Shown here one piece after another: positions 362 through 34,491 of a DNA stretch of 34,491 nucleotides. This DNA is from a virus. Position numbers and translations under genes: made by a program. The stretch lies in the IMG/VR virus record IMGVR_UViG_3300009180_000121, positions 1-34,491 of that record; one strand, written 5' to 3'. The notes below the pieces were generated by a model. That model did no database searches. It worked only from the letters and a program-made list of their open reading frames with translations, and was not told the origin of the DNA. Every line of letters starts with the position of its first letter. The first letter of the stretch is position 1.

Positions 362-1921
362 TTATCCCCCGACATCCCAGCCGGACATTTCGTTGTCCGC
401 GGATGCCTGCTTCATTAGTTCAAGCAAAGATGGACGCGTGTATGCCATTGTCAAGTCGTAGTCAATCCCAGAGTTGTCGCATGCCATTGCGACCGCGTCG
501 GCCCTGTCCGGAGATGCCACCCCCCTAGACCGCATTGCGTCTTTTGACTCCAGGCCCAGCTTCCCGCGGGACGTGGCTTGAGCTCTCCTGGTCACTAGTT
601 GGCTTTTGAGAATATCGTCTTCGGGCAGGATGATGTCGCAAGTGTCGATCTTCCGGGCCAGCCTGTGCCACATCTCGGAACCCTTGTTCTGATACGCGTC
701 GTTGTCCCTGGCGTTGCCACCAAAGTTAATCCGATTCACGGTCCACCCAGCTTCGCTCAGCGCGTCGCACATCGGCAGACCCAGGCCCCCGGCATCGGCG
801 AATACTTGCTCCGGCTTAACCCCGGCTTTCTTTAGCTCCATAATGATCCGCCCGACCGTTGCCATCGTGTCTCTTTCGCGCCATGTGATCAGCGGAAGGA
901 TTCGGTTGCCCTCCCGGATTGCGATCACGTTCTCGTCGCCACCCGCGGAAAAGTCAATGCCAGCTGCCCTGTCTGTTCCATTAGGGACAGGAGGGTTGTT
1001 TACGCAATTGTCGTAGCTGCCTAAGCTCACGACCAGGCGCTCTTCGCCCAAGTCCATAAATTCTGCCTTGAGCATCGACTGAGTAAATGGGCTGTTGATG
1101 CCGTAGCGTTGCTGAATTTCTTGTATGTACAAAGGGCTGATATGGGGACAGTCCCAGGCTGTCGCCCGGGTCTTTTTCCACAGATCTGCCTCCTTTGTAA
1201 AGCATCGGTAGAACTGACCTACCGGAGCCCCCGGCGAACTGGCGACTAGTAATCTAGTTGGTTGGCACCGAAACACTGAAACGTAGATCGGATCTTGGAC
1301 GGTCTTGGCTTCGTCGACAACGTACAGAAGGGGAGCGCTTTCATGGTTCGCAGCGTGGAAACCCTCCGCTCTGCCTGCTGACTCGTTGTCATTGCCTGCT
1401 GTAAACCCCAAAATTCGGCTTATACGCCCCGAGGCGTGCTTGAAGCGGATTTCCCCACTGGTGACCTCAACCATGTCGCCGAAGGGCCTTAGAAGGGCTT
1501 TAATCGCAGGCCAGAGTACGGATTCCACTTGGCGATACACAGACGCTGTAACGACGCTCAGAGACTCCTCAAAGCATACCATGTGCCAGACCAGGGCCGG
1601 GGCGATGACATTTGACGTCTTGCCGGAACCGTTCGCAGCCACCAGCGCTACCCTGCTATAGATCGGGGCCAGGTTATTCATGACCTCTTTTTGCCAGGGG
1701 TATAGGTTTAATCTGAGCACGCCCTCCGCGAATCCTGCCGGGGTAGCCTGTTCGTCAACCTTGGATGCCGGGCCGGGTTTCGATGACCCCTTTTTATTTC
1801 TAGCCGAATTTCTGATGGGGGGCGCGCGCGCGCGCGCGCGTGGTGGGGGCCCCCCGGGGGGGGTGTCGTGGGGGGTCGGATTTTCCTGGGGTGTCGTCTT
1901 CACAATTTTATTGACTTCCAA
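362..1921 (-). CDS. terL: Terminase large subunit
   Basis: The packaging motor ATPase and headful/cos nuclease. Counting from the TTG at 1921 (519 aa), Walker A is AANGSGKT at residues 95-102, Walker B is LLYVVDEA at about 198-205, and the coupling motif VASSPG is at 226-231. The RNase H-like nuclease shows GIDFSAGGD (D323), FADAGG (D376) and SPDRADAVA (D472, D475). The start is uncertain: TTG 1921 has a poor ribosome site, GTG 1903 is an alternative, and no ATG lies before the conserved part at about residue 63. The first 60 residues are Pro/Arg/Ala-rich and are encoded by an extreme GC run (1818-1863). It follows terS with a 33-base gap. Confidence 0.95.
   Translation of the reverse strand: MEVNKIVKTTPQENPTPHDTPPGGPPPRARARAPPIRNSARNKKGSSKPGPASKVDEQATPAGFAEGVLRLNLYPWQKEVMNNLAPIYSRVALVAANGSGKTSNVIAPALVWHMVCFEESLSVVTASVYRQVESVLWPAIKALLRPFGDMVEVTSGEIRFKHASGRISRILGFTAGNDNESAGRAEGFHAANHESAPLLYVVDEAKTVQDPIYVSVFRCQPTRLLVASSPGAPVGQFYRCFTKEADLWKKTRATAWDCPHISPLYIQEIQQRYGINSPFTQSMLKAEFMDLGEERLVVSLGSYDNCVNNPPVPNGTDRAAGIDFSAGGDENVIAIREGNRILPLITWRERDTMATVGRIIMELKKAGVKPEQVFADAGGLGLPMCDALSEAGWTVNRINFGGNARDNDAYQNKGSEMWHRLARKIDTCDIILPEDDILKSQLVTRRAQATSRGKLGLESKDAMRSRGVASPDRADAVAMACDNSGIDYDLTMAYTRPSLLELMKQASADNEMSGWDVGG
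1818..1863. repeat. Alternating GC and homopolymer G/C tract inside terL
   Basis: Positions 1822-1840 are a 19-base uninterrupted alternating G/C run. After a short spacer come runs of G, C and G at 1845-1863. On the minus strand this encodes the PPGGPPPRARARAPP segment of the terminase N-terminus. Such alternating purine-pyrimidine DNA can adopt Z-form, and both tract types are prone to slippage in replication or sequencing. A change of one repeat unit would shift the frame upstream of the ATPase. Confidence 0.9.
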
Positions 1922-1954: not shown

Positions 1955-2617
1955 TCATTTGTCGCACAATGAGTCTTGTGTGGTATTTGCCTCAATAACA
2001 GACTTCGACCCCGACTTCCCGGCATACTTAATTTTGTTTGCGTTGACTAACAGCGCAGCGTCGGCCGCGGTAAAATGTACGTTCGCCACCGATCCTCCGA
2101 CCTGGACTCTTGCCTGCTGACCGAAATGCTCCTGAGCCCTGCGTTCGATGCGCCATGCGGCCGCTTGCCAGGTCCCCTTTTCTGCCGCCCTGTCAATGAC
2201 TTCCAACGCGCGGGTGATGTGGAGCGACTCTGCTTTTTTTAAGCGTTCGGTGATGTGGGGCCTGGCGGATAGGAATGCTGATAGCGTGGACTTTGCGATT
2301 CCAAGTAAGTCCGCAATCATGGCATATGGGAACCCTTTACTCAGCGCAGTCTCGACTATTGTCAGGTGCTCCTCGGTAATCTTGGGCAATCCCCTGGCGC
2401 CTAGTTCAACGTCCGGGATGTAATTCGGAACTTCATTCATGAGTCTGCGCTCTTTGTCCAGGCGCTTCTCATCCACCTTCTCAATCTTCTTCTCGGGAAC
2501 GCGCAGCTTCATCCTGCGCTTCTTTTGCCTCGGCACTATGGCCGGGATCGGATCAGAGACTAGATCCTTTGGACTCGTAGTAATTGGCAAGTCGCTGGAG
2601 TTTCCAGATGCATTCAT
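1955..2617 (-). CDS. terS: Terminase small subunit
   Basis: A 220-residue protein starting at ATG 2615-2617, directly upstream of terL. Residues 1-65 are low-complexity and basic (PRQKKRRMKLRVPEKK). Residues about 80-125 form a helix-turn-helix (ALSKGFPYAMIADLLGIAK, then STLSAFLSARPHITERLKKA). The segment after it (EVIDRAAEKGTWQAAAWRIE) is the usual oligomerisation helix region, with RRAQEHFGQQ typical of phage small terminases. The protein would recognise the packaging site and load the large subunit. It overlaps the upstream 65-aa gene by 65 bases. The intergenic region upstream (2751-3111) is a natural candidate for a pac or cos site. Confidence 0.85.
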   Translation of the reverse strand: MNASGNSSDLPITTSPKDLVSDPIPAIVPRQKKRRMKLRVPEKKIEKVDEKRLDKERRLMNEVPNYIPDVELGARGLPKITEEHLTIVETALSKGFPYAMIADLLGIAKSTLSAFLSARPHITERLKKAESLHITRALEVIDRAAEKGTWQAAAWRIERRAQEHFGQQARVQVGGSVANVHFTAADAALLVNANKIKYAGKSGSKSVIEANTTQDSLCDK

Positions 2618-2750
2618 TAACTAGCGTCTCCCCAACTTCGTCGCTGCACTTCCTGTTGCAATTGGTAAGCAACTTCCAGAACGATGAGCATGCTGACTTG
2701 AGCTTAACGTTCTCAGCGATGATCGATTTGATTTTAGCTTCGTCTGACAC
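2553..2750 (-). CDS. Small hypothetical protein, 65 aa
   Basis: Not recognised. The GTG at 2748-2750 is chosen because GGGAGG lies 7 bases upstream; a TTG at 2756 would sit on top of that site. The product is helical and Lys/Glu-rich with four cysteines (ACSSFWK, NCNRKCSDE, NECIWK), and it ends NYYESKGSSL. It overlaps the start of terS by 65 bases in another frame, so its translation probably couples to terS. It is the first gene after the structured intergenic region. A short regulator or a packaging accessory is possible, but nothing in the sequence proves either. Confidence 0.6.
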   Translation of the reverse strand: MSDEAKIKSIIAENVKLKSACSSFWKLLTNCNRKCSDEVGETLVNECIWKLQRLANYYESKGSSL

Positions 2751-2892
2751 ATGCAACCCTCCCGGTAGTTAGAAAACCCCGCGCCCGGGAACCACTTTCA
2801 CCCCTCCCGGGTCGCAGCCAGTTCCCCAACCCACCCCATAAGAACTGGCTTGCGTCAAAGTATTGCATCCGGGCCAACGCGCAAGCCTTTCG

Positions 2893-2901
2893 TGTTTCAC
2901 C
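2893..2901. promoter_or_regulatory. Third copy of the TGTTTCACC half-site
   Basis: TGTTTCACC at 2893-2901 repeats the plus-strand half-site found at 3020-3028. It lies on the far side of the structured RNA, about 125 bases from the main inverted repeat. Three copies in one intergenic region suggest a protein-binding motif, though a 9-base match is short. Confidence 0.35.
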
Positions 2902-2941
2902 TATTCTTTCTGGTAAGAATTAAAAAGGCATATGGTAAACT

Positions 2942-3022
2942 GAAAAGACCCCGCGGTTGGAGCGGTACCGCTAGCGCAGCGAAGCGGGGGGACTTTAGTC
3001 CCCCGCTCTAACAGGGGTCTGT
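2942..3022 (-). ncRNA. Candidate small structured RNA ending in a T run
   Basis: On the minus strand, a 7-bp outer stem AGACCCC (3020-3014) with GGGGTCT (2952-2946) closes a domain of about 75 bases. Inside are a strong hairpin at 3007-2983 (GGGGGAC, TAAA loop, GTCCCCC, plus three further pairs past a bulged C) and a 12-base perfect palindrome AGCGGTACCGCT at 2972-2961. The 3' arm of the outer stem runs straight into TTTT. A TATAAT box at 3034-3029 would start transcription near 3022. The unit therefore looks like a self-contained RNA of about 80 nt or a terminated leader. It has a three-way-junction shape but is not a tRNA. The function is unknown. Confidence 0.55.
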
Positions 3023-3065
3023 TTCACCATTATATACATATAAGGGGAACGAAATGGTGAAACAG
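3019..3065 (-). promoter_or_regulatory. 13-bp inverted repeat around a TATAAT box (promoter/operator)
   Basis: CTGTTTCACCATT at 3019-3031 and AATGGTGAAACAG at 3053-3065 are perfect inverted repeats with a 21-base centre. On the minus strand a perfect -10 hexamer TATAAT lies at 3034-3029, partly inside one arm. No good -35 hexamer is present at 16-18 bp (the bases there are CATTTC, CCATTT or ACCATT). The arrangement looks like an operator whose occupation blocks or activates a promoter firing toward the structured RNA and terS. The intergenic region 2751-3111 holds no other gene that I can see. Confidence 0.5.
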
Positions 3066-3111
3066 TGTAGAACCCGGGTTTAACAGAGTAGCCCGAAATG
3101 GCTGTTTTAGC

Positions 3112-3309
3112 CTAGTTTTGAGCACTAAAACCAACCACCGGGAGCTCTTTCCCGGCCCAATTCCTGTTACCTTTAGGCGCCCCACCCTTCTTACCATTAG
3201 CGATCGATGCCTTGGCCTTAGCCTCCGACCTCACCCTGCCGATTCTGGACGTGAACAGCGCCACCGGGACCTCACATCTACAGTTAGGACATTCAATTGA
3301 TTTACTCAT
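3112..3309 (-). CDS. Small basic protein with CPNC motif, 65 aa
   Basis: ATG 3307-3309 is chosen because GGAGG lies 5 bases upstream and it forms an ATGA overlap with the stop of the Mom-like gene. The start of the product is MSKSIECPNCRCEVPVALF, a single Cys-Pro-Asn-Cys knuckle plus one more Cys. A basic segment (SEAKAKASIANGKKGGAPKG) follows, as seen in small phage DNA-binding or unknown proteins. Only half a zinc ribbon is visible, so metal binding would need a dimer. Coupled translation suggests a role with the Mom-like protein. It is the last gene before the terS intergenic region. Confidence 0.6.
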   Translation of the reverse strand: MSKSIECPNCRCEVPVALFTSRIGRVRSEAKAKASIANGKKGGAPKGNRNWAGKELPVVGFSAQN

Positions 3310-3974
3310 TCTTCCCTCCATTCTTTCCATTCTTTCCAGTTTTGTATCTCCCATTTCAGTAAAGCCTTGTCCTTCTGATTGCAGAAATAGACAAACCTAT
3401 GCTTCCTGGTCCGCGGAACGATCACTGCCTCTTCCATGGTCCGCGAGTGCCTGCTGTGCTTGTTGCCGACCACCTTGTCCCCGGAAGATCTCTTGTCGGA
3501 CAGTCCGGTATAGATCCAGTTCGTTGCCGAGTAGATCATTCCATTGTGCCCGGCCCCGGTGTCTGCATAGCTAACCAGGATCAAGTACGGTCGCAACTTT
3601 GTTAACTCTCGAATGCTCCAGGATATGAATCTGCTTTCAGAGTTCTTAGGACACCGATCGTCGAGCCACAATCTGTTCAACTCGTAGACCCTGGACGCAT
3701 TCTCTGCCCCGCATATGCCCCTGCATAGATGGGGCGACGCGGGTTTGCCGAACGAGATTACTCCCAGCAGTTCATTGCCATGGAAGCACCCGAACGACCA
3801 GTTGCACGGCACGGCCCGGTGCGCGTAGTGGTTGGCGACGACTACTTCATTCATCGTCTTGGACCCTATGGCCCGGAATTTAAGTTGGAGCGCAGAGGTA
3901 GGAATTGCACCTCCATCGTCCCCTTGGAATAGGGGAAGCTCTACTATTGAGCTATCTGCGCGTAAACTCACCAT
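3306..3974 (-). CDS. Mom-like DNA modification protein (GNAT-fold)
   Basis: A 222-residue protein that I recognise as a relative of the Mu Mom adenine-modification family. The characteristic blocks are LLGVISFGKPASP, then YELNRLWLDDRCPKNSES, then ILVSYADTGAGHNG and IYSATNWIYTGL. Mom converts adenines in phage DNA to a carbamoylmethyl form and so evades restriction; the fold is acetyltransferase-like. Substrate and chemistry here are inferred from the family. The start at ATG 3974 overlaps the previous stop by 7 bases. The first 28 codons coincide with a tRNA-Gly-like sequence (3886-3961), and the family domain begins right after it at LQLKFRAIG. The C-terminal tail is Trp/Glu/Lys-rich. Confidence 0.75.
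   Translation of the reverse strand: MVSLRADSSIVELPLFQGDDGGAIPTSALQLKFRAIGSKTMNEVVVANHYAHRAVPCNWSFGCFHGNELLGVISFGKPASPHLCRGICGAENASRVYELNRLWLDDRCPKNSESRFISWSIRELTKLRPYLILVSYADTGAGHNGMIYSATNWIYTGLSDKRSSGDKVVGNKHSRHSRTMEEAVIVPRTRKHRFVYFCNQKDKALLKWEIQNWKEWKEWREE
3886..3961 (-). tRNA. tRNA-Gly(UCC)-like sequence, degenerate or atypical
   Basis: A 76-base minus-strand stretch folds as a near-cloverleaf. It has a perfect 7-bp acceptor (GCGCAGA with TCTGCGC), TA, a D-stem GCTC/GAGC with the loop AATAGTA, and an anticodon stem TCCCC/GGGGA. The variable region is CGAT, and the T-arm is GGAGG, TGCAATT, CCTaCC. The sequence ends in an encoded TCCA. The anticodon would be UCC (Gly). Deviations: the anticodon loop is 8 nt (TATTCCAA), one base bulges in the T-stem, the D-loop lacks GG, and T55 is G. 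It lies within the 5' coding part of the Mom-like gene. It may be a decayed or atypical tRNA. Confidence 0.45.
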
Positions 3975-33902: not shown

Positions 33903-34153
33903 CAGTCTTCCGTCATTTCTCCGCCGTCCATCTTGACGGCTTCATTCCGAAGACGTTCTCCATCGCTTTCAGCTTTAGGATTTTCTTTTTCAATCTCTCC
34001 CTCTGCTTCGCTTACGCGAACCATGGCAACGCCTTCTTTGATTTCAACAACTTCTCCGGTCAATTCAACCATATCGCCGATTGCAGGCTCGGCCTGTTCG
34101 GTCTCTTGCGAGATGGTTAGATTCTCGATCGGAATATTTACCATGTTAGCCAT
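33902..34153 (-). CDS. Acidic virion-region protein, 83 aa
   Basis: ATG 34151-34153 (MANMVNIPIENLTISQETEQ) is chosen because AGGGG lies 7 bases upstream; the frame is open to 34246 but that part reads through a GC hairpin. A short barrel-like segment (IGDMVELTGEVVEIKEGVAM) is followed by a very acidic tail (VSEAEGEIEKENPKAES, ending MDGGEMTED). Acidic proteins next to capsid genes can act as scaffolds or assembly factors. The role is unproven. Confidence 0.6.
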   Translation of the reverse strand: MANMVNIPIENLTISQETEQAEPAIGDMVELTGEVVEIKEGVAMVRVSEAEGEIEKENPKAESDGERLRNEAVKMDGGEMTED

Positions 34154-34174
34154 TTTTGACCCCTTGCTTTTAGG

Positions 34175-34223
34175 TTCGGGCCCGGGGAGATTTTTGCCTC
34201 CCCGGACCTTCGCTTCGGGCCCG
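34175..34223 (-). terminator. Strong GC hairpin after the capsid gene
   Basis: CCGGGGAG (34182-34189) and CTCCCCGG (34197-34204) pair perfectly around a 7-base loop, and TTCGGGCCC occurs twice as a direct repeat (34175-34183, 34215-34223). The structure lies between the capsid stop and the next ribosome site. There is no T run on the minus strand after it, so a partial terminator, an RNA-processing site or an mRNA stabiliser are all possible. Such hairpins often set high capsid expression. Confidence 0.45.
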
Positions 34224-34250
34224 ATCATTAATACGATCGCGCCCATTTAA

Positions 34251-34491
34251 TTAGCTGACTTCAGAACGACTAAACACGACTCGGTAGAACGCTCCGTTCA
34301 ACTGAATCGCGGTGTAGTACGTTTTGACAGCGACCGAGGTTACCAAATCCAGAGGGTCGGACTTGTCAGGACCTTCTGCAATTAGGACCTTGGGGCTATA
34401 GGGCGAGTCGCCTGTGAGGCTAGGTACGCCGAATGCCTGGTCACCGAGCACAATGTTCGCCAAGAAAGGCGCAGTGCTGGAGTTGTAGGAC
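34251..34491 (-). CDS. Major capsid protein, N4-gp56-like (C-terminal part)
   Basis: The frame is open to the right edge, so the N-terminus is outside the window; an apparent start at 34463 is only an internal Leu codon. The 79 visible residues include FLANIVLGDQAFGVPSLTGD, then KSDPLDLVTSVAVKTYYTAI, then QLNGAFYRVVFSRSEVS. This matches the end of N4-gp56-type HK97-fold capsid proteins, whose pattern is a Y/F-G strand, then D-P-L, then W/V-K and a final strand after L-N. The assignment is from this end only. It is followed by a strong hairpin and small virion genes. Confidence 0.65.
   Translation of the reverse strand, partial: SYNSSTAPFLANIVLGDQAFGVPSLTGDSPYSPKVLIAEGPDKSDPLDLVTSVAVKTYYTAIQLNGAFYRVVFSRSEVS

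Follow-up and report, generated by a model that had tools for sequence, protein, structure and literature searches.

In the pRNA of phage phi29, complementary loops join the copies into a ring. The put RNA of phage HK022, with two stem-loops and about 70 nt, belongs to the early operons, putL being located directly behind the PL promoter, and it binds the β′ zinc-binding domain and needs no protein factor to suppress termination (PMC9378689). In addition, structured 5′ leaders of phage and bacterial operons have been presented as candidate RNA motifs from comparative genomics (e.g. PMC2864571). Here we report the analysis of two structured elements, R1 and R2, upstream of the terminase gene terS of a phage. 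Like put, R1 is a short, structured RNA of a phage and stands close to where a long transcription unit begins; in contrast to put, it forms a closed three-way junction and precedes late genes, and an effect on the polymerase is known for put. Tested for the put architecture of two consecutive stem-loops in about 70 nt, R1 does not show it; hence we do not file R1 as a put RNA, and the comparison is made by analogy. With the structured operon leaders, R1 and R2 share being noncoding, covarying and fixed upstream of one gene set, which are the general marks of a cis-regulatory leader, while they differ in having no match in Rfam 15 and in being two elements with different phylogenetic reach. Like the phi29 pRNA, R1 is a three-way-junction phage RNA near packaging genes; unlike it, R1 has no interlocking loops and no Rfam match, and this phage has a conventional TerS and TerL.

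The window, which means the whole stretch of DNA analysed, is the 34,491-base virus record IMGVR_UViG_3300009180_000121 of IMG/VR (positions 1 to 34,491). The identified genes in the window are all on the minus strand, and the features around the locus are as follows.

362..1921, minus strand: terL, terminase large subunit (phrog_2, E 2e-24)
1955..2617, minus strand: terS, terminase small subunit (phrog_4102, E 4e-15)
2553..2750, minus strand: sm67, small ORF with a probable GTG start, first gene behind the leader region (homologs in L074-L076)
2757..2886, minus strand: R2, structured element between R1 and the ribosome-binding site
2943..3022, minus strand: R1, three-way-junction RNA ending in UUUU (from folding and alignment)
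3112-3354, minus strand: ORF of 80 aa
3306-3974, minus strand: Mom-like gene

The noncoding gap of about 350 nt (2757-3111) houses an inverted repeat, R1 and R2. No family match was found for sm67, and replication and recombination genes are located farther up from the Mom-like gene. In one relative, the contig of L023/L068, a 127-nt overlap of the ends closes a circle of 36,553 bp, in which the leader region is followed by terS, terL, an SU10-type portal, the major head protein and a tail fibre. This gene order places the leader region at the boundary between replication/modification and packaging/head genes, and in this circular relative the region opens the packaging/head module sm67-terS-terL-portal-capsid. 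A cassette of tRNA and mom upstream of R1 is present in some relatives and missing in others while R1 stays throughout, showing that R1 belongs with terS. A replication origin near the leader region was rejected, as there is no GC-skew switch around 3 kb.

Fold and conservation of R1

The original prediction described an RNA of about 80 nt with a 7-bp closing stem, two inner hairpins and a terminal UUUU (2946-2943), and our folding agrees with this description. The stems are given below.

3020-3014/2952-2946, minus strand: P1 of R1 (AGACCCC/GGGGUCU in the window)
3012-3010/2958-2956, minus strand: P2 of R1
3008-3003/2965-2960, minus strand: P3 of R1
3002-2998/2993-2989, minus strand: P4 of R1
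2987-2983/2972-2968, minus strand: P5 of R1

On the minus strand, the stretch 3025-2930 folds with -43.4 kcal/mol, compared with -27.4 ± 3.3 in shuffles (z -4.84, 0 of 200 as good), and R1 is among the three most structured places on the entire minus strand in a scan with 110-nt windows. Its sequence is close to a palindrome, and both strands of R1 fold about equally well. The region first delimited as structured, 2893-3065, does contain the fold, but the conserved structure extends further, to about 2757. With an intrinsic terminator taken as a GC-rich hairpin directly followed by about five or more U, the U-run after R1, which has 4 nt in the window and 3 nt in three relatives (L007, L009 and L016), would make at best a weak terminator; the terminator listing contains a weak 5-pair site at 2963-2948 that differs from the supported fold, with a U-run of 3-4 nt.

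A terS search of IMG/VR yields 33 loci as relatives. Among their upstream stretches, 28 match the R1 region, the window's own included, and the remaining loci are contigs ending before R1 or fall outside that match test; besides the window, 27 related contigs of IMG/VR thus have R1 upstream of terS. The mean pairwise identity of R1 is 0.953, whereas the spacer behind it has 0.783 and sm67 and terS together have 0.866, so R1 is the most conserved part of the noncoding gap and exceeds the adjoining coding DNA. The RNAalifold consensus for R1 is the three-way junction, and 16 distinct sequences fold as a closed three-way junction. Six versions of P1 are found (AGACCCC/GGGGUCU, AGCCCCC/GGGGGCU, GACCCCU/GGGGGUC, AGACCCCU/GGGGGUCU, AGCCACU/AGUGGCU and AGACCCU/GGGGUCU), each with 7 or 8 consecutive pairs counting G-U, and in P4 a G-C is exchanged for an A-U among relatives. 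The fold is real because all six versions of P1 pair and P4 makes this exchange. The pairs of P2, P3 and P5 never vary, and covariation is therefore silent on their pairing. We looked among the relatives for stems varying without compensation, and found compensatory changes in P1 and P4 instead; judged from the alignment, these matched changes show that the R1 fold is kept by selection. The states of P1 and P4 are scattered across the terS tree, which points to recurrent changes or to spread by recombination. In the shuffle control, 98.7% of R1 cells are paired (96.3% in shuffles, 0/500) and 15 cells are changed on both sides (5.3 in shuffles, 0/500), whereas pairs with a change on both sides number 4 against 2.8 (80/500) and further pair types are not above shuffles (492/500); the alignment used there has L028 misplaced in P1, and the direct comparison of P1 is the clearer evidence.

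As for its reach, R1 was not matched in any of 62 loci that are more distant or partial, Akkermansia phages and prophages included, and its core pattern is absent from the searched bacterial genome contigs. Its model, run under strict filters and without a positive control, does not occur in 388 genomes belonging to the same phylum as an Akkermansia MAG (see below), which is a weak negative. No match was obtained in annotated phages by blastn with 811 bases, and in the searches made R1 was never found away from terS. As R1 is limited to one clade, late expression in the wider group does not depend on it. In agreement with the original statement that no family is recognised, R1 has no Rfam match at gathering score, nor with E values of up to 10; the window has no Rfam 15 family above the gathering threshold except a tRNA at 3890-3961. 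A terS-associated RNA motif was not found in a literature search of partial coverage. Two copies of R1 in L045 (IMGVR_UViG_3300020042_012129) were rejected as a true duplication, since the contig is a head-to-head chimera of two strains, both strains' ends being at window position 2783, within hairpin B of R2.

The inverted repeat and R2

A perfect inverted repeat of 13 bp with a spacer of 21 nt is present at 3019-3031/3053-3065 as originally reported, and the window as a whole has no other inverted repeat of 13 bp or more whose arms lie within 120 nt (search seed 11).

3053..3065, minus strand: left (5′) arm, CTGTTTCACCATT, operator-like, identical in 27 of 28 aligned sequences
3019..3031, minus strand: right arm, AATGGTGAAACAG, with core AATGGTGAAA invariant in 28 of 28
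3029..3034, minus strand: TATAAT box, possible -10, with a 3-nt overlap with the right arm

The outer CAG of the right arm is TGA in L007, L009, L010 and L016. Overall, in the alignment of 28 sequences the arms are fixed letter for letter while the adjoining stems change sequence yet keep pairing, which speaks for a sequence-specific protein site rather than just an RNA hairpin, and the inverted repeat is a plausible candidate operator. In a longer transcript, it would also be predicted to fold as a hairpin stacked directly on P1. The TATAAT box, which had been described as bracketed by the repeat, does exist, but its AAT (box 3034-3029, minus strand) already belongs to the right arm, which opens with these three bases (3031-3029), CAGAAT replaces the box in 10 of the 28 aligned sequences, and no -35-like hexamer was found 16-18 nt upstream. 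The box hence lacks the sigma-70 arrangement of -35 and -10 hexamers with 16-18 nt between them, and it is not listed at 3034-3029 in a promoter scan of the window; the promoter reading of TATAAT is weak. The third half-site of the original prediction is an exact 9-mer in the window (2893-2901), but it is not conserved in the alignment and its motif is not enriched. A regulon of repeated operators was rejected, with 9 matches of GGTGAAACA at up to one mismatch against 8.7 expected in the window, i.e. no enrichment, and only weak enrichment of AATGGTGAAACAG (16 against 11.0). Also rejected was a mobile element with TGTTTCACC...GGTGAAACA terminal repeats, for which target duplication is not seen and the right end is not conserved.

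The second element, R2, which the original prediction did not mention, has three hairpins, two of them with G-rich loops.

2880-2877/2868-2865, minus strand: hairpin of R2
2850-2842/2824-2816, minus strand: hairpin of R2 with loop GGGGUGGGUUGGGG
2815-2805/2791-2781, minus strand: hairpin of R2
2763-2757, minus strand: ribosome-binding site GGGAGGG, the end of R2

R2 is located at the same place in five contigs of more distant phages, whose terS is about 55% identical; wider searches for R2 contributed two contigs, kin of L075 and L076. Changes on both sides are seen in 9 of its 21 pairs, and the covariation score is 0.403, where shuffles give 0.180 and slid versions no more than 0.087, this slid control being biased toward R2 as the structure was picked from the same sequences. 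R2 covaries more strongly than R1 and extends to more distant phages; unlike R1, it has a marked strand preference, its fold being much better on the gene strand. The distant phages with R2 have no R1, and in L075, L076, L203 and L205 a small ORF ends directly ahead of R2. With R1 in one clade and R2 wider, the locus shows how such leaders gain or lose modules. A switch between hairpin B and the ribosome-binding site is disfavoured: in L027, hairpin B is kept by compensation (CCCUGG/CCAGGG) while the alternative pairing with the ribosome-binding site is weakened, and this favours hairpin B. In L074, the place of R1 ahead of R2 is occupied by an unrelated insert of about 240 nt (677-917), which has inverted repeats close to its ends (GATTTTTGTAAGAATC / TTCTGTAAAAGAATC). 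In L203 (2225-2420) and L205 (2090-2290), the pre-R2 small ORF is itself preceded by a noncoding stretch of another kind, which has long hairpins and seems to be structured.

Possible roles of the region

With moderate confidence, we regard the inverted repeat, R1 and R2 as a regulatory 5′ leader that opens the late (packaging, morphogenesis) transcription unit of this phage clade; most likely, the conserved folded RNA ahead of the packaging genes helps control late virion gene expression. The reading is favoured because R1 and R2 show compensatory changes, R1 is always upstream of terS and outconserves the adjoining coding DNA, the packaging, portal, head and tail genes follow in the circular relative, and R2 prefers the gene strand, with arms fixed while stems covary. 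It is weakened because the TATAAT box varies among relatives and lacks a -35, R1 folds on both strands and is confined to one clade, and P2, P3 and P5 are invariant. The inverted repeat would most likely serve as an operator that binds a protein and controls a promoter located at the repeat or close to it; R1 would fold as soon as its region is transcribed, and R2 would fold beside the ribosome-binding site of sm67, ahead of terS. R1 would then most likely act in cis on the packaging-gene transcript, probably via elongation or readthrough into the long late operon, or else by another transcriptional route or message stability, while R2, adjoining the ribosome-binding site, would more likely affect the start of translation. 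Among the roles first listed, a leader for terS/terL is best placed. The folds with their conservation, the fixed position and the gene order are observed, whereas the start of transcription, the operator, the action in cis and the level at which control occurs are inferred. On the whole, the locus provides two covariation-supported RNA elements new to Rfam, at the boundary of replication and packaging genes, in a phage group to which no isolate of the searched phage collection is close. Should the leader control the late operon, it would provide a compact RNA handle on late gene control beyond the models of lambda and T4.

The leader explanation also has a sharper version, whose probability is not to be added to it: R1 would be a put-like element, the nascent RNA binding the transcribing RNA polymerase, which would then resist terminators throughout the late operon. 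R1 would start at or next to the first base of the RNA, before a long array of genes on one strand, a placement comparable to that of putL behind PL (PMC9378689); yet it is a closed junction where put has two stem-loops, and the promoter ahead of it is putative, and we consider this version unlikely. That R1 represents a second, structurally unrelated class of protein-free RNA antiterminator, letting the host polymerase read through the whole late operon of an uncultured phage probably infecting Verrucomicrobiota, seems quite unlikely. It is likewise rather improbable that R1 is a free small RNA of about 80 nt acting in trans, with its own promoter and a weak terminator: the compact fold pairs its two ends, and in the window TATAAT is just upstream and UUUU just downstream, but the U-run is merely 3-4, the box is not conserved, and R1 keeps to terS in all searches.

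Sites such as pac, cos or TerS-binding sites typically adjoin terS, and the region might be such a DNA site, its hairpins mattering as DNA. The position fits, and some contigs end at 2783, 2797, 2949 and 2954. However, contig ends are scattered, most being near the low-complexity tract at 1685-1990, and most contigs run across the leader region; the stems hold their pairing through changes of sequence, which would be unnecessary for a protein site on double-stranded DNA, and R2 is biased toward the gene strand. We give a DNA site little credence: the pac role of the original prediction is, like a cos role, weakly supported, as the stems indicate a single-stranded fold and there is no single end site, and the same scatter speaks against a cos end at the leader region. 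Template switching can copy one arm of a palindrome onto the other, and the near-palindromic R1, folding on both strands, would be a substrate for stem changes during replication without selection for RNA; against six versions of P1, changes in P4 and three R2 hairpins, and conservation above that of coding DNA, this is very improbable. Finally, a packaging RNA forming part of the motor as in phi29, also listed originally, is extremely improbable. Beside the junction near the terminase genes that suggests it stand the ordinary TerS/TerL pair, the two hairpin loops (UAAA/UGAA and CGCUNCG), which by eye are not complementary to each other and so offer no evident loop-loop ring, and the phi29 pRNA model of Rfam, which finds nothing either at gathering score or with E allowed up to 10.

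Host and further observations

The closest terL genes in annotated phages are those of Akkermansia phages (38%). The search of bacterial genome contigs gave only two matches, both in an Akkermansia MAG, and a terL relative is detected in 12 of 388 genomes of the phylum of this MAG (best 42%). These similarities suggest a Verrucomicrobiota host as likely.

ARAGORN does not detect the tRNA gene at 3890-3961 (minus strand; Rfam 35.3 bits). The gene overlaps the 5′ end annotated for the Mom-like ORF, which in reality probably starts further in. The tRNA and mom occur as one cassette in about half of the comparable relatives, and the D-arm shows matched changes among relatives, from GCUC/GAGC to GUUC/GAAC. 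At 1685-1990, many relatives' contigs end around a tract of CCCCGGGGGG and GCGCGC, which lies in the 5′ part of terL and encodes PPGGPPPRARARAT; this is probably an assembly or sequencing obstacle, and may be a terminus. In addition, another gap, at 34140-34260 (minus strand), is strongly folded (z -5.05) with two GC-rich hairpins; it precedes a small ORF of the region that holds the structural genes.
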